Shown: in pieces, positions 37,540 to 45,097 of the stretch | How the letters are laid out: every line of letters starts with the position of its first letter | How positions within the stretch are numbered: position 1 is the stretch's first letter | Source of the DNA: Candidatus Binatia bacterium | GTDB taxonomy: Bacteria; Desulfobacterota; Binatia; HRBIN30; BPIQ01 | DNA length: 64,000 bases | NCBI GenBank assembly: GCA_026004195.1 | Contig: BPIQ01000001.1 | Span: 1,478,311-1,542,310, forward strand | Direction: 5' to 3' | The notes under the pieces: model-generated | Told to the model about the DNA's origin: nothing | What the model saw: only the letters and a program-made list of their open reading frames with translations | Databases searched by the model: none | Position numbers and translations under genes: made by a program

Positions 37540-39714
37540 TCAGGCCGCCGGAGAACCGAGGCGTTCGCCGCACCGCTTCTCGTAGTAGGCGGCCACCCCT
37601 CCACCCTCCTCGCGTGCGAGCGCGGAGAAAAGCTCGCGCGCCTCCGGGAACTTCCCCTCACGGTAAAAACGTAGAGCCCGTTCGAAGCGGTCCACGCGAG
37701 TGCGGAGCGCGGCCGCGTCGCCGGCCGTGCCGAGAAGTTCGAAGATGCGCGTGGCCCGCGTCTTCCCTCGCACCTGTATCCGGTCGATCTCTCGCACGAG
37801 GAAATCCCCGCCCGCGAGCTCGACGACGTTCTCGGACAAGAGGATGCGCGTCCCGTACGTTTTGTTGAGAGCTTCGAGCCGCGAGGCCAGGTTCACGGAG
37901 TCCCCGACCACGGTGTAGCTCAACCGGCGCCGGGAACCGAGATTACCGACGATCATCTCGCCGGTGGCGATGCCGATCCCGCATTCGAGCTCGGGCTTCC
38001 CTTCCTCGGCCCACGCACGGTTCAGCGCTTCGAGCCTCCGGAGCATTTCGAGCGCCGTAGCGCAGGCCCGACGAGCGTGGTCGGACTGCTCGAGGGGGGC
38101 ACCCCAGAATGCCATCACGGCGTCGCCCATGTACTTGTCGAGGGTGCCCCCGTGCGCGAACACGACGTCGGTCATCTCTTCGAAGTACGCGTTCATCGTC
38201 GAGATGAGTTCTTCCGGGTCCCAGCCCTCGGCGAGAGAAGTGAATCCCCGAATGTCGGAAAAAAGCACCGTGAGTTCTTTTCGTTCGCCGCCGAGCCCGA
38301 GCTTCTCGGGCCGGTCTTCGATCGAGGCGAACGACGCTCGGGCTCAGGTAAAGGCCGAACGCGCTCCGCAACTCGCGCCGGCGTCGCGACTCTCGCAAAA
38401 ACCGCTCCGTCGTCACGCACGCGTAGGCCAGCCCCAGCGCGAGCAGCGGATAGGCGAGGCCCAGCGGAATCCCGGCGCGCAAAAAGACCCACTGGGTCGC
38501 GAGAACGTACGAAGCGGCCGAGATCCCGGCCCAGAGCGTGCCGCCGAGCGCCCCGGCAGGTGCGAAGCCGAACGAGCCGGCGAGAGCCAGCGTCGCGAGC
38601 GTGTCGACGAACAGGGAGACCCAGCGCGGCTTTCGGAGAAAATCCCCCCGGAGCACGTTGTCGATGACGGTCGCGTGCATTTCCACGCCGGGAAAAACCT
38701 CGTCGAAGGGGGTCACGCGCAGAGTCCATCACCGCCTTCGCCGTCACGCCCACGAGGACGATTTTTTCGCGAAACGTTCCAGGCGCGGTTTCTCGGCCGA
38801 GGACCCGTGCCGCCGAGAAGTGCGGGAACGTGCGTCCCGGACCGCGGTAGTTCACGAGGAAGGTCCCGTCTTCCGCGACCGGGATCGATGTCCCGCCGAT
38901 CTCGAGAGAATCCACCCCGAAGCTCGCGAAGCGCAGCGCGGCTTTCGCCTCGCCGAGGTGGGTCCGGAGGACCGCGAGGGAAAGCGGCAAAGCAAAACGC
39001 CCCCGGTGACGGAGAACGAGAGGCACCCTGCGGCAGACGCCGTCCCCTGGATCGGGGACGATGTCGAAGTAACCCGTGGCCCGTGCTGCCTCGGTGAGCT
39101 CGGGCAGGTTTCCCCGGAGCCCGGTCGCCTCGAGCACACGCCGTTCTCCGCTTCCGTCCACGGTTCCGAGCACGACGTCGTACTCCGAGAACGGAACGTC
39201 GTCGGACCCGTTTCCGTACCCGAAATCGAAGAAGTAACCGAGAACGGCCCGGCCCGAACGCCGCACGGCCTCTACCAGTTCCCGGTCTTCGTCGGGAACG
39301 AGCCGGAGGGCCGTCTCCACCTCGCCCCGGACCTCCGGACGAACGCTCTCGAGAAGCGGTCGCCAGTCGGGTCTTCGCGTCGGCTCGGATTGCACGATGT
39401 CGAAACCGACGACCGAAGCACCGTCCTCGACCAGCACGATCGAGAAGGCGCGCGACCGTCGATCGGGACCAGGGCCAGCGGCCGTATCGCTCGAGACTCT
39501 CGTCGTCCACGGCCACGACGACGACTTCCGGCCCGGGCCGGGTCGGCCCGCGGGCGAGAAGGCGGAAATCGAAGGCCTTACGGTCGAGCGAGTCGAGAAA
39601 AAAGCACCCCCGGACTTCGAGCGCCGTGACGGCCACGCCCACGAGGAGGGCGAGCCGCAGCCCGGAAACGCCGAGAGCGGGCCGGGTTTTCTTTGCCTTG
39701 TTTTTTCGCCTCAA
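37540..39714 (-). CDS. CHASE2-domain adenylate/guanylate cyclase, three frameshifts
   Basis: A class III nucleotide cyclase with an extracytoplasmic CHASE2 sensor, readable only across four frames. Segment 1 (39714 to ~39440): N-terminal helix and CHASE2 start (FDFRLLARGPTRPGPEVVVVA, YGRWPWSRS). Segment 2: rest of CHASE2 (ASVVGFDIV, YFDIVPDPGDG, KIVLVGVTAKAVMD). Segment 3 (~38716-38340): TPFDEVFPGVEMHATVIDNVL and three membrane helices. Segment 4: cyclase domain (LTVLFSDIRGFTSLAEG, DKYMGDAVMAFWGAP, GDSVNLASRLEALN) with both metal Asp residues. Removing one base at each of three junctions gives ~723 continuous residues. It is the last gene of the lipoprotein/TPR/FecR operon. Confidence 0.82.
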
Positions 39715-39729
39715 AACCGCACGGACGCC

Positions 39730-40611
39730 TCAGAAACGCACGCGTACGCCGCCCTGCTCGGGAGGAGGAGCCGGAGCCGGAGGTTCCTCGGTCACGGGCT
39801 GGTCGAGAATCGTGCCGACGTCGCGCAGGTCCTGTTCGGTGCTCGGCTCCACCGGAGCCCCCTCGACGGCCGCCGCGCTCGCCCTCTCCGGTTCGGGAAC
39901 TTCCGCCGCCCGGACGAGACCGTGCTCGAACGGTAGCCGCTCGAAGCGTCCGGATTCGAACACCTGGAATTCTTCCAGGTAACGCCGGAGCGCGTCTTCT
40001 TCGAGTGTGCGCGGTCCCGCGGGGATCTCGCCCATGGGAACGACGGTCGCCTCCCGAGCCCCGAGAAAAACGCCCTGCGCGAAGCGGTCGAACACGCTGT
40101 GAACGGAGACCCGACCGCTCAGGGCGACGACTTCCGTCACGTCCGAGACCGGGTCGTAGAGCACGACGAAGTCCGTCCCCCGCACGCCGACGACCGCCGT
40201 GCGCGTCTCCACGGTGAAGTCGGCCTCCGCCCCCCGGTACGCCTCCGAAGCGAGGCTCCGCAACTTCCCGGAAAGCAGCCGCAGAAGCGTCCGCAGCGTG
40301 CCCTCGGCCGGACGGAAAACCTGCTCGTCGACCACGATTTCGGTCCCGTCGCCCAGGCTCAGGACGCTTTCGTCCCGCAAGACGACGCGCAGCCGTCCCG
40401 GTACACCCGTGCGCAGCGTATCACCGAGTTCGACCTCCGTCCCCTCGGAGGCTTCGAACCACGACCCCGCGCGTCCGATCTCGGCCTTCCCCTCGACGGC
40501 AGCCACCCGACCCACGGGCTCGGCGTAGGCGAGAGCGACGGCGAACCAGGATACGACGAGAGCCACGCCGAAGAACCGACGCCGGGGGCTCGACCATGCA
40601 CCGCTTTTCAT
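39730..40611 (-). CDS. FecR-domain periplasmic protein
   Basis: A 293-residue exported protein with a signal (VALVVSWFAVALAYA) and a FecR domain at residues ~30-170 (GRVAAVEGKAEIGRAGSW, GDTLRTGVPGRLRVVL, DFTVETRTAVVGVRGTDFVV, VVALSGRVSVHSV). Its C-terminal half is Glu/Pro-rich and ends with APAPPPEQGG. In this context it is not a sigma-factor regulator, since no ECF sigma gene is near. It sits between a TPR/outer-membrane protein and a CHASE2 cyclase, and its ATG overlaps the TPR gene stop (TGATG). A role in envelope signalling with these partners is inferred. Confidence 0.88.
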   Translation of the reverse strand: MKSGAWSSPRRRFFGVALVVSWFAVALAYAEPVGRVAAVEGKAEIGRAGSWFEASEGTEVELGDTLRTGVPGRLRVVLRDESVLSLGDGTEIVVDEQVFRPAEGTLRTLLRLLSGKLRSLASEAYRGAEADFTVETRTAVVGVRGTDFVVLYDPVSDVTEVVALSGRVSVHSVFDRFAQGVFLGAREATVVPMGEIPAGPRTLEEDALRRYLEEFQVFESGRFERLPFEHGLVRAAEVPEPERASAAAVEGAPVEPSTEQDLRDVGTILDQPVTEEPPAPAPPPEQGGVRVRF

Positions 40612-42167
40612 CAGTACCTACCTTCCACCCCGAACGAGGCGATGTGGCGTTCGTACTCGAACGCTCGGTCGTTCGAGAGGTTCCAGGTCCCGAAGTAGGA
40701 TGCCGAAAGCCGGAACCAGGGACCGAGGCGTTTCCAGACCGAGACGATGGCCCTGTGCTCGTCGTCCTGCCGCCGCTCGAAGTTGCTTTCCGGCCTCCTG
40801 CTTTCGCGGGCGTAGTCCTCTCTCCGGTAGAAGTAACGTCCCTCGAGGCCGAGCCCCCACGGCAGGGCCGCCAAAAAGCCGGCTCCGGCCTGGTGTCCCA
40901 GATAACCGAACGCTTCGGCGGCCACCGTGTCCCTCGAAGGCTGCTCGTCGTCGAACTGGTAACCGAGCCAGGCATAGCGGTCGGGCCGACCGAGGAAGAA
41001 GACCTGTCGGACTCCCGCCGCGTGATTGAAGGCGTCGCGCAGCGAGTCGAAAGGCTCGAGGACGAAGTCGCGCCGTCGGAGCCGGTAGGAGACTTCCGTG
41101 CGTCCGAGCTTTCCCTGCCGAAAGACGACCGCCGGCACGACGTTCACCTCGTGCAGAAACTCGTCCGTCCGGAGGAGAAAGAAATCGTAGCGGGTCGCGA
41201 AAACGAACTCGAGCCACTCCCAACGAGCGCGTGCGAGGAGGCTCGGGCGGTGGTTCTGGAGGTCGAAATCGGTGAGGTCGAAGTGCAGGGTCTGGTAGAA
41301 TTCGTACGAGGCTTCGAGCTCCGCTCCGCGGGAGCGCCAGAGCGCGTACCATCCGCCCAGCGTGAGGGCCACCCGGCCGTCGGCTTCTTCGGCGAGCCCC
41401 AGATCCTGCTTCACGACCTCGTCGTCCGGAGCCAGAGCGACGTTCGAATCGTACTGGAAGTCCACCCCGCCGTAGATTCCGTACCGGGTTCGTTTGCGAG
41501 CCCGGAGCTCGCGGAGGAAGACGCGGGCCTCGGCGGCCATCGGTGTGGTCGGAGCCGATTCTTCCACCTTGCGGAAGAACCCTTCTGCTTCCGCCCAGAG
41601 CTTTTGTCGGAAAGCCGAGACGCCGCGATAGTAGGCCGCGGGAACCTCGAGCTCGGGGTCGGCTTCTTCCGCCAGGCGAAAATCCTCCTCGGCTTCCTCG
41701 ACCTCCCCCAGTCGGAGATGCGCGATGCCCGAGAACATCGACGCCTCGCCTCGGAGCTCGGGGTCGCGACGTGCCTTCTCGAGCCAGCGGAGCGCGTCCC
41801 GGTACCGGCCGAGTTCGAGGGCAGCCACTCCCGCTTCGAGAGCCGCCTCCGAAATCGTGGGATCGAGAGCGAGAGCGCGCTCGAGGTCGCCGAGCGCTTC
41901 CTCGTAGCGTCGGAGGCGCGAGAGCGCCACGCCGCGGGAATAGAGCGCGTACGGGTCGTTCGGGTCGGCTCGGACCGCCCGGTCGAACCACTCGAGCGCC
42001 CGCGCGAACTCCTTCGCACGGAAGTGCACGAGGCCACGAGCCCGCAACTCGGCCGAGGTTTCGGTCCGTGCGGTGGTGGGGCGCAGGAACTCCAGGGCGA
42101 GGACGAAACCCAGAAGAACGCGAAAAAGCCGCAACTCCCGCGGCGAAGAGGCGCGGGGCGGCACCAC
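40611..42167 (-). CDS. TPR protein with C-terminal outer-membrane beta-barrel-like domain
   Basis: A 518-residue exported protein. A signal-like N-terminus (LRLFRVLLGFVLALEFL) is followed by five or six tetratricopeptide repeats at residues ~38-215 (ARALEWFDRAVRADPNDPYALYSRGVAL and successors). The second half is a series of alternating amphipathic strands with aromatic girdles (YGIYGGVDFQYDSNVAL, LEASYEFYQTLHFDLTDF, RTEVSYRLRRRDF) ending in IASFGVEGRY with a C-terminal aromatic residue, as in outer-membrane barrels. It would display the TPR part in the periplasm. The GTG start overlaps the upstream stop (TAGTG) and the 3' end overlaps the FecR start. Confidence 0.8.
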   Translation of the reverse strand: MVPPRASSPRELRLFRVLLGFVLALEFLRPTTARTETSAELRARGLVHFRAKEFARALEWFDRAVRADPNDPYALYSRGVALSRLRRYEEALGDLERALALDPTISEAALEAGVAALELGRYRDALRWLEKARRDPELRGEASMFSGIAHLRLGEVEEAEEDFRLAEEADPELEVPAAYYRGVSAFRQKLWAEAEGFFRKVEESAPTTPMAAEARVFLRELRARKRTRYGIYGGVDFQYDSNVALAPDDEVVKQDLGLAEEADGRVALTLGGWYALWRSRGAELEASYEFYQTLHFDLTDFDLQNHRPSLLARARWEWLEFVFATRYDFFLLRTDEFLHEVNVVPAVVFRQGKLGRTEVSYRLRRRDFVLEPFDSLRDAFNHAAGVRQVFFLGRPDRYAWLGYQFDDEQPSRDTVAAEAFGYLGHQAGAGFLAALPWGLGLEGRYFYRREDYARESRRPESNFERRQDDEHRAIVSVWKRLGPWFRLSASYFGTWNLSNDRAFEYERHIASFGVEGRY

Positions 42168-43055
42168 TAGCGCACCTCGACCTGCCAGGCGAAATCCAGA
42201 AGGCGGGGCGGCCTATCGAGATTGCCGGCCCGGACCTGAAGCCGGGTCACTCCGGGGGCGGCCGAGACGGGCTGCCGCGGCCGATACGTGGAAGCCGTCC
42301 ACGCCGAGCTCTCCCCCGGGACTACAAACGTTCGGCGAGTCGTCCGAGCAGGGGTCGAGGACGATCTCCACGGTACGGACGAGCCGCGTGCTCTCGACGA
42401 TCTCGACGAGGATCGAGTCCGCGTCCACGCCAGCGAGCGCCTCGGCAACCGTGAGCCGCAAGTCGAAGGGCGCGGAGGGAGCGCTGCGGGGCGGCGGTTC
42501 CAAACTTTCGACGATGACGAAGGGAAACGAGTGCAGCAAAATGTCGCCGGCGTCGGATTCCACGCCTGCCACCACGGTGACTCCCCGCGGGTCGCTCGAG
42601 AAGCTCGGAGCCGTCACCTGGGTGAGGCTACACGAGCGCCCCAGCGCACCAGGCTCGAGCGGGCAGGTTTCTCGGATCTCCCGCTCCGTCGGAGCGAAGC
42701 CCGAGGGAAACCCCGAGACGTGAAGCGTTGCAGGGCCCACCGGGAGCGGCGAAAGCACCACGAAGCGCTCCCCCGTGGCGGGATCCGTCGGCGCACCTCG
42801 GGGGTCGAACGCCACGCAGCAGCGGAAACCCGTCTCGGACTCGAAAAGAAGGCGGACCGTTTTCACGGCACGCGGCAGCTCCGTGCCGAAGCCGGCACCC
42901 GGCTCCGGAAAGTCGCCTGCTGCCCCTCCGGCCGCCCGCTGCCACAGGGCGCGGAAGCCGAGCATTCCGCTGCCCTCGCCGGACCCGCCGCAGCCGGGCG
43001 CGGACAGGCCAACGAGAAGTACGAAGAGAAAAAGCGTCCCGAGAAATGTTCTCAC
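42167..43055 (-). CDS. Lipoprotein of unknown function, frameshifted near its C-terminus
   Basis: First gene of the TPR/FecR/CHASE2 operon. The N-terminus is a lipoprotein signal (LFLFVLLVGLSAPGCGG). The mature part has strands with an Ig-like or adhesin-like look (VKTVRLLFESETGFRCCVAFD, LPVGPATLHVSGFPSGFAP, FDLRLTVAEALAGVDADSILVEI) and no known family. The main frame stops at 42213, but a plausible ending (QPVSAAPGVTRLQVRAGNL ... LLDFAWQVEVR) lies in the +1 frame and stops at 42167, exactly overlapping the next gene start. One extra base between ~42245 and 42300 would explain this. Confidence 0.65.
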
Positions 43056-43212: not shown

Positions 43213-45097
43213 CTAGCCGCCCGCTGTGAGCACGCGAACGGTACAGACGACATCGGCTGCGCCGACCTGTCCGTCCCCGTTGCAGTCCACGGCCGTGCAG
43301 CGACTCGCGAGCTCCGCGTCGAACGTGGCGCGAACCAGAGCCCGGAGGTCCGCTTCGGTCGCTTCGCCGTCGCAGTCGGCGTCCCCGGGAAAACTCGTGG
43401 CCGTCGTCGGCGTAGCCGTGGGCGGGCGGGTTACGGTCGGTGTAGGGGTCTCGGTCGGGGTGAGAGTGGCCGTGCGGGTACGCGTCACGGTAGGAGTCGA
43501 TTCGGGGGTATGGGTGGGGGTCGGAACGGCCGTGGGAGGCCGCGTGGGAGTCGCCGTGGGCGTGGGTGTGGGCGAGACTCCCGCCGACCGGACGATCGGA
43601 AGATCGAAGGCCTTCGAGTGCATGTTCCCTTCGGCATCGCGCAACGAGACGCGCACGAATGACGTGAACTCGTCGGGGAAGTCGGGGGGCAGGAGCGGGA
43701 CGTCGCCTTCGAGCACCCCGTCCGAGGACAGGGTCAAACCGGGAACGCCGGTCTCTTCGAGCGCGAACTCCACGGGCCCCACGCCACCCGTGGCGCCGAA
43801 AACGTGCCGGTAGAATTCTCCTGCTACGGCCGTGGGAAGGGGATCGGGGGAAAGAATCGTGACGGGAAGGTCGGTCGGATAGAGAATCTCGAGCCCTGCG
43901 ATGTCGTCCTCTCGTACCGCGGCGCACCGCCCGTCGAAGTGGGCCCGGAAATACATCAGAGCGTCCTCGAGGAGCGGGTCCGGTTCGTCGGGATCTTCCG
44001 AGGAGTGGCCGAAGCCGATGGAGTGCCCGACCTCGTGAGCGAGAACTTCGGCCACGCCGCACGGGTCCCAGCTAGAGCACCCCTCGAGACCGTCGTTGAG
44101 GACGACGTACGCACACCGGGCCGGCACGAACGTCCGCCCGTCGAAGACCTTGTGCTCGCGCGCGTTCTCGACGGAAGAGGGAGCCGTGAAGCCGCCCCGC
44201 CCGAGCACTCCGTTGCAACCGTCCGGGTCGGGAATTTCCTCGAAGGGGTCGTTGAAAACGATCTTGTTGGGGCCCGGACACGAGCGCGAGAGCTCGGAGG
44301 TGAGCCCTTCCACGTCGAGCTCGATCGAAGCCGTCGGCACGTCCGACCAGGCGGAAAATGCACTCTCGACCGCGGAGAGGGAATCCTCGAAGCCGAGAAG
44401 GGCATCGCCTGCCTGGTCGACGAGATACAGAAGCGGCGCGCCTTCGTCGGCGACGAAGTGTCGTGCCGGAGGGTCCTGAAGGAACGCGAACTCCGCCGTG
44501 ACTTCTTTTCGGAGCGAGGGATCGTCGTATTCGGGAGGCACGGGTCGAAAGGAAGCGGCGGTGCCCGGCCGGAGCCTCGGCCGCAGCCTTCTCGAGGCGC
44601 TCGAAGAGAATCACGGGATCGAACGTCTCGCCGGGAAAAAGACGGCCGCCGCCGAGCGTCCGCACCGCGGCCATGCCGCCCGGCAGATCGACGAGCCGGA
44701 ACTTCCCGAGCGCCATGTGGTTCGTCCTGAGACTTCCGTCCGGGCGTACGTCGAGGAAGACGAGCACGCGCTCGCCGACCCGGTACTCGGGCGACCCGAA
44801 GACCACGCTCCGCCACCCGTCGGCTTCGCCGCCGTCTTCCTTGAGCACGATCTCGGTCGTACCCACGCTGCCGTGAAGCGTTCGCTCCACCTCGATCCGG
44901 ACGAGCGTGAAAATTCTTCCGTCGGGCGCGCGGACTCCGGAGATTTCCGAGACCGTACCGATCACCGAAGCCACGGAGCTTCGGACGAGCCCTTCCGGAG
45001 AAACCGGGACGAAGACCGTCCCGAGAGCCGCCTGCGCCGGGAGGAGAGAGACCGCCAGAACTGCCACCCACTTTCCGCATGGCGCCCAAACGCACAC
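43213..45097 (-). CDS. Secreted metzincin-type metalloprotease with Thr/Pro linker and dockerin-like tail, frameshifted
   Basis: A ~627-residue exported protease. The N-terminal part (signal WVAVLAVSLLPAQAALG; then SSVASVIGTVSEISGVRAPDG, EYRVGERVLVFLD) reads to about 44548. One extra base there (CCGGGCACC in place of CCGGCACC) shifts the frame. The catalytic part follows (ESAFSAWSDVPTASIEL, EVLAHEVGHSIGFGHSSED with HExxHxxGxxH, LMYFRAHF), matching matrixin-like metzincins, then a cadherin-like domain, a PTPTPT linker and a dockerin-like pair (GDADCDGEATEADL, DCNGDGQVGAADV). Its GTG start sits in a hairpin, and an ATG at 45080 would give a better signal peptide if one A were removed (MRKWVAVLAV). 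Confidence 0.78.

Follow-up and report, generated by a model that had tools for sequence, protein, structure and literature searches.

Four adjacent genes whose predicted products run from the outer to the inner membrane raise the question of whether an event at the cell surface is turned into a cyclic nucleotide signal. They come from a Candidatus Binatia bacterium of the order HRBIN30 and lie in the window, the whole 64,000-nucleotide stretch of DNA that was analysed, all on the minus strand and running from 43055 down to 37540:

42167..43055, minus strand, surface lipoprotein; only a conserved N-terminal domain is recognised (16-row alignment, conserved Cys and Pro)
40611..42167, minus strand, TPR-barrel protein; TPR at about residues 38-226, C-terminal β-barrel at about residues 230-518
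39730..40611, minus strand, FecR-domain protein; signal peptide by eye, no other Pfam domains, tail ending in GVRVRF
37540..39714, minus strand, CHASE2 class III adenylate cyclase; pieces at about 39714-39439, 39437-38722, 38720-38330 and 38330-37540

The gene set, strand and place given in the initial annotation agree with both the open reading frames and the Pfam scan, which found TPR (6e-24) in the TPR-barrel protein, FecR (1.6e-13) in the FecR protein, and three CHASE2 pieces (5e-13, 1e-25 and 5e-5) in addition to Guanylate_cyc (2e-24) in the cyclase, and matched no family in the lipoprotein of the window. The order of CHASE2 followed by Guanylate_cyc is consistent across frames, with two of the three CHASE2 pieces and the catalytic piece over the cut-off. 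The claimed junctions are also present: the barrel and FecR genes overlap by one base in a TGATG at 40611, and a gap of 15 bases separates the end of the FecR gene at 39730 from the TTG start of the cyclase at 39714. However, the TAGTG at 42167 that joins the lipoprotein and barrel genes is reached only via an unreported lipoprotein frameshift. The annotated lipoprotein frame (42213-43055) stops at 42213 and its continuation lies in the open reading frame 42167-42448; owing to the frameshift near 42277, the last residues are in another frame. A promoter scan of the operon found none, and terminator-like sites were no commoner than in shuffled sequences. Upstream of the operon stands a matrixin-like metalloprotease gene (43213-45097, frameshift near 44542), the product of which has a Thr/Pro stalk and, by eye, a dockerin-like C-terminus.

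In the FecR protein, only PF04773 was matched (residues 64-168), and the N-terminus reads by eye as a signal peptide; neither an N-terminal anti-sigma domain nor a membrane helix ahead of the FecR domain was found by Pfam or by eye. The absence of a sigma factor, proposed earlier, was borne out among the neighbours scanned for domains, and FecI-FecR signalling was rejected on these two grounds, the missing sigma factor and the missing anti-sigma domain. The locus shares with FecI-FecR-FecA a FecR domain and an outer-membrane barrel, whereas the anti-sigma N-terminal domain, the sigma factor and the TonB receptor were not found here and TPR replaces the signalling plug. The lack of a sigma factor beside a FecR protein is not in itself evidence of signalling. 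The FecR proteins of this family share a short C-terminal tail resembling Gx[LV]x[VI]xF, in which the last residue is Phe in 10 of 14, and contain no barrel; such a Phe-type ending is like the C-terminal signal of outer-membrane barrels. A search of the PDB with the FecR family profile matched an antifreeze protein fragment (5ix9, E 5.5e-6).

Genes of similar content stand beside CHASE2 cyclases elsewhere. The cyclase of L004, a locus of a relative, matched 117 records of a plasmid collection, and a FecR gene lies beside the cyclase in six of the seven annotated plasmid regions examined; in the seventh, of S. meliloti R11, the gap beside the cyclase carries no annotation. On pSymB of S. meliloti 2011, an unannotated frame of 1219 residues contains FecR and TPR domains and overlaps by one base the start of the CHASE2 cyclase downstream, and its C-terminal stretch fits the barrel range reported for NsrA. 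From its length, its place and that range (600-1200, PMC7529298), we infer that this protein is NsrA. According to the same paper, NsrA is an outer-membrane receptor that signals via the cyclase CyaK, both being required for signal perception, and PMC13001267 likewise presents NsrA as an outer-membrane receptor with CyaK as its cyclase. Rhizobium BG4 and Methylocystis also encode a FecR-TPR protein, of 1213 and 1221 residues respectively, immediately ahead of the cyclase, and in Paracoccus aminophilus the genes for a cNMP-patatin, a TPR-barrel protein, a FecR protein and a cyclase are side by side.

The FecR profile of the window is homologous to the FecR region of the S. meliloti protein, the one relative in this comparison (hhalign probability 97, E 3e-11). 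What the locus and NsrA-CyaK share is a homologous FecR domain, a TPR domain and a barrel at the C-terminus, encoded next to a CHASE2 adenylate cyclase, and a one-base gene overlap. They differ in that these parts form one polypeptide in S. meliloti but are separate genes here, and in that the window's relatives have several receptor operons per one cyclase. In addition, the barrels are not detectably homologous: BLASTP against the S. meliloti protein matched only TPR, and the Paracoccus barrel gave a weak hhalign probability of 27.

We therefore favour, with moderate confidence, a split NsrA-like outer-membrane receptor that feeds a CHASE2 adenylate cyclase and has gained a surface lipoprotein. 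In such a receptor, the lipoprotein, putatively its sensor head, and the barrel would form the surface part, from which the TPR domain would hang into the periplasm, and FecR would serve as a separate periplasmic adaptor. Either the FecR or the TPR domain would contact and act on the cyclase of the inner membrane through its periplasmic CHASE2 domain, so that the signal would run inwards and alter the output of cAMP, the probable product in the host species. The relay from the outer membrane to a cyclic nucleotide, as put forward in the initial annotation, gains from the S. meliloti fusion upstream of a CHASE2 cyclase and from the signalling of NsrA via CyaK; it is weakened by a cyclase that is often not adjacent and by smc02177, a FecR gene beside cyaD1 in S. 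meliloti and a target of Clr, a receptor of cAMP, which PMC5498481 describes as dispensable for plant signal perception. This dispensability, the barrels without detectable homology to NsrA, and a possible Slam-like export function all speak against a simple relay. Our main doubts accordingly concern the direction of the signal, the Slam-like export role and the intactness of the cyclase in the host species.

Two further described systems are comparable. A Campylobacterota cluster, compared by its description in PMC9239204, also combines a CHASE2 cyclase with FecR and TPR genes, for which one pathway was proposed, but has a phosphodiesterase gene where the lipoprotein stands here. The Burkholderia BiofilmReg operon (PMC5192318) likewise places a secreted FecR-domain protein beside a CHASE2 sensor; it differs in a LysM domain, a CHASE2 histidine kinase with two-component output and the lack of a barrel. 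As FecR is paired with histidine kinases in the latter, the FecR-CHASE2 link outlasts a change of output. The same text states that what CHASE2 domains sense is unknown. The FecR-CHASE2 link itself is already known, since PMC9239204, PMC5498481 and PMC5192318 describe it; new here are the separate FecR protein, the variable-head lipoprotein, the several receptor operons per cyclase and the cNMP-binding enzymes beside some cyclases. In the literature searched, which left out most subscription papers, no account was found of a lipoprotein-barrel-FecR triad or of a cyclase accompanied by more than one such triad.

Conservation of the gene order was surveyed in 118 genomes of the class. Of 59 barrel rows, the 9 that fell short of 800 bp were dropped, which left 50, with 34 in the order (15 genomes) and 16 elsewhere; 3 of 80 CHASE2 rows were dropped as pieces of one gene. 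Neighbours were counted within 1 kb on the same strand for FecR, 6 kb for the lipoprotein domain and 8 kb for CHASE2, limits at which some misses may reflect contig ends. In the order, FecR lies near the barrel in 34/34 cases, the lipoprotein in 23/34 and CHASE2 in 6/34, and the corresponding values in the class outside the order are 12/16, 3/16 and 10/16. The barrel-FecR arrangement is more than chance. Of the four-gene order originally described, the lipoprotein-barrel-FecR core is thus conserved, but the adjacency of the cyclase is not general.

Despite this, a CHASE2 protein is encoded in 29 of the 30 genomes with a barrel match, including 15/15 outside the order. Across the 118 genomes, FecR and CHASE2 are associated (45/7/13/53, Fisher p 2e-13). 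Both this value and the co-occurrence counts are uncorrected for shared descent. Among the 15 genomes of the order, 13 (window counted) encode a CHASE2-cyclase protein, which lies near the barrel-FecR pair in six and elsewhere in seven. The two exceptions are G008, whose CHASE2 protein carries a Ser/Thr kinase and no cyclase, and G012, a barrel genome without a CHASE2 match; together with the 28 of 34 barrels in the order that have no adjacent cyclase, they count against the relay. The kinase fusion of G008 is located at L049:360-3038. In a tree of the catalytic parts, the cyclases of the order and family f7 form one group (support 96/97), and the orphan and adjacent copies are therefore read as one orthologous enzyme. 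A single cyclase may serve several receptor operons. The barrel tree, which holds all 34 barrels of the order and only 6 of the 16 from elsewhere, divides with good support into two sides. On one are 13 barrels, each from a different genome and never beside CHASE2; on the other are 27, including that of the window and every one of the 12 barrels adjacent to CHASE2, some of which belong to families f7 and f11. Linkage to the cyclase can be read as old on the latter side and separated later. The host genome has a second barrel-FecR pair on a long branch (L025, contig 1, 135-138 kb), near which lipoprotein and CHASE2 matches are absent.

The steadier link of the barrel to the lipoprotein than to the cyclase, 23/34 against 6/34, suits another explanation, in which the triad would serve to display a protein at the surface in the manner of Slam (type XI secretion): the TPR-barrel protein would export or anchor a stalked, variable-head lipoprotein with the help of FecR in the periplasm, and the cyclase would be a regulator or a frequent neighbour. 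The lipoproteins fit this. An N-terminal domain with a conserved Cys and Pro is common to the 16 aligned copies, and a lipobox-like Cys was seen, by eye or pattern, in most lipoproteins but not in L028. The open frames at the 15 other loci, 372-1396 residues from stop to stop, all exceed that of the window; they include a 40-residue segment in which Thr and Pro make up 55-80%, and they differ in their C-terminal parts. Four of these heads are β-propellers (L028, L033, L034 and L036) and one combines CarboxypepD_reg with TSP3 (L027); no domain was recognised in the heads of the other lipoproteins scanned. The window lipoprotein has neither stalk nor head, and its structure model (pLDDT 34.5) is too low in confidence to judge a C-terminal eight-stranded barrel, for which there is no Pfam match either.

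The outer-membrane barrel is assigned from weak Pfam barrel hits, about 13 predicted strands in a low-confidence model and a conserved C-terminal half; in the model, built from the rows of the window and L004, pLDDT is mostly above 90 for TPR and mostly below 50 for the barrel. Its profile had no meaningful match in the PDB, and at 1e-8 the window barrel found nothing in the plasmid collection. A role in exopolysaccharide export was rejected, as E. coli BcsC ranked only 16 in the fold search with an rmsd of 13, for which reason that match was not used. Like Slam proteins (SlipAM, DUF560), the protein has periplasmic N-terminal TPR and a C-terminal barrel, with a lipoprotein gene next door and weak SlipAM matches; unlike there, 33 of 34 barrels fall under the curated cut-off and no C-terminal TbpB-like barrel is recognised in the lipoprotein beside it. 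The window barrel scored 21.6 and 19.3 bits in two scans, below the cut-off of 22. All three SlipAM matches in the order (HRBIN30) are in barrels of the window's family (3/3), SlipAM is matched by 5/19 barrel domains (best 2.7e-7), TPR_Slam was matched in 12/19 full-length barrel proteins, and a Paracoccus FecR protein has a sub-threshold TbpB_B_D match (2e-4). On the other hand, only 1/34 barrels passes the SlipAM cut-off, BBP2_2 is matched by more of the barrel domains (11/19), and a display unit leaves unexplained the CHASE2 protein in nearly all barrel genomes. FecR and the cyclase terms sought are absent from the main text of two papers on type XI secretion (PMC12282271, PMC8406197). We regard the display unit as the strongest of the alternatives, though a fairly unlikely one.

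Also counting against the split receptor, the cyclase of the window is broken as assembled, with the three reported frameshifts confirmed at about 39439, 38722 and 38330, and sits on a long branch. Among class III cyclases of solved structure, the best match of its catalytic piece is a bacteriophytochrome-adenylate cyclase (2e-46). Class III cyclases use two Asp for metal, Lys and Thr for adenine, and Asn and Arg for the transition state; the window retains all six (D, K, D, T, N, R), as do the orthologues of the order. The two f12 copies have S in place of T, and one truncated row is without the last three. Frameshifts were placed with a codon-model decoder, which runs each strand alone, so that shadow frames inflate its counts. 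It called five here, at 44542, about 42277-42285, 39439, 38722 and 38330, all insertion-like, and 117 in 20 other stretches of the host genome, or 2.24 per 10 kb called coding, compared with 0.49, 0.61 and 1.77 in three sets of loci from relatives. Six of the 20 stretches contain at least five calls in the space of 6.3 kb. Under a Poisson model at the genome rate, three in 2.17 kb have a P of 0.013 and five in 6.7 kb a P of 0.019, and hence the local cluster is mildly unusual; it looks stronger on the window's own rate, as 5 of its 10 calls fall at the operon region.

That the cyclase is a decaying pseudogene in the host species, with the output of the operon lost, seems unlikely to us. Such decay would agree with the presence of three frameshifts over 2.2 kb, the long branch of the cyclase (1.23, where the median is 0.28), a genome that is small (3.6 Mb) compared to most relatives, and an rpoB intact over 4 kb, which argues against a uniformly error-rich assembly; the frameshifts themselves are patchy. 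However, the coding pieces have no in-frame stop and all catalytic residues are retained, and the local frameshifts share one insertion-like character in a genome where frameshift calls are common. Because of this genome-wide abundance and the intact cyclases of the relatives retrieved, the frameshifts look like errors of the present assembly, and patchy assembly error fits them better than selective decay. Inactivation, which the initial annotation had named as grounds for abandoning the relay, is thus disfavoured by the survey, though not decisively.

The suggested search for a receiver of cAMP gave a divided answer: the host genome encodes only two cNMP-binding proteins, a Crp/Fnr protein and an MMPL transporter, neither near the operon, but in relatives such proteins stand beside the cyclase more than by chance, with 3 of 14 within 3 kb of a CHASE2 gene against 0.12 expected (P 3e-4; 6 of 107 rows dropped as second domains or under the cut-off). 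By eye, the motif of the Crp/Fnr protein seems to lack the usual phosphate-binding Arg; a Clr-like output is therefore not evident in the host, which also tells against FecR and barrel as targets of cAMP. The MMPL transporter gene with its cNMP domain (L066:1387-3021, host contig 2) is followed by a LolA-like gene (281-1180), and the pair is possibly a cAMP-gated envelope exporter. Among the relatives, G005 and G011 have, as the next gene downstream of the cyclase, one for an enzyme with glutaminase, STAS and cNMP domains (read by eye and from PF00027), and in G009 such an enzyme is encoded near the barrel:

L053:4672-6600, L054:1137-3077 and L004:4040-6163, glutaminase-STAS-cNMP enzyme beside a CHASE2 cyclase or barrel

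In G001, a patatin-cNMP protein is encoded beside FecR, and a protein that combines two cNMP domains with ferredoxin-like motifs is encoded near the orphan cyclase (by eye and PF00027). These enzymes allow a speculative combination, which we hold to be improbable as a whole, of a surface-display checkpoint: a Slam-like TPR-barrel protein would load a stalked lipoprotein with interchangeable heads, and barrel occupancy or head binding would be read by periplasmic FecR and passed to one shared CHASE2 cyclase. Several heads would then feed one common pool of cAMP, whose targets would be cAMP-gated enzymes (glutaminase, patatin phospholipase and RND exporter) rather than a transcription factor.

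Least probable is that FecR and the barrel come after cAMP in the pathway, serving as targets or effectors rather than as upstream sensors: smc02177 and the TPR gene smb20495 are indeed Clr targets needed for phenotype and not for perception, with effector secretion as the authors' second possibility (PMC5498481), and NHLP-type export genes adjoin a FecR-CHASE2 cyclase in Shinella and Ensifer (L115, L118), but NsrA, the reported outer-membrane receptor, is required for perception (PMC7529298).

Since the parts are encoded separately here, any one of them can be removed or exchanged while the others stay in place, an option that the fused NsrA does not offer. The variable heads of the lipoproteins would reveal the kinds of signal that are read, and the layout of one cyclase with many receptors would be a naturally occurring test case for the way in which events at the outer membrane reach an enzyme of the inner one.
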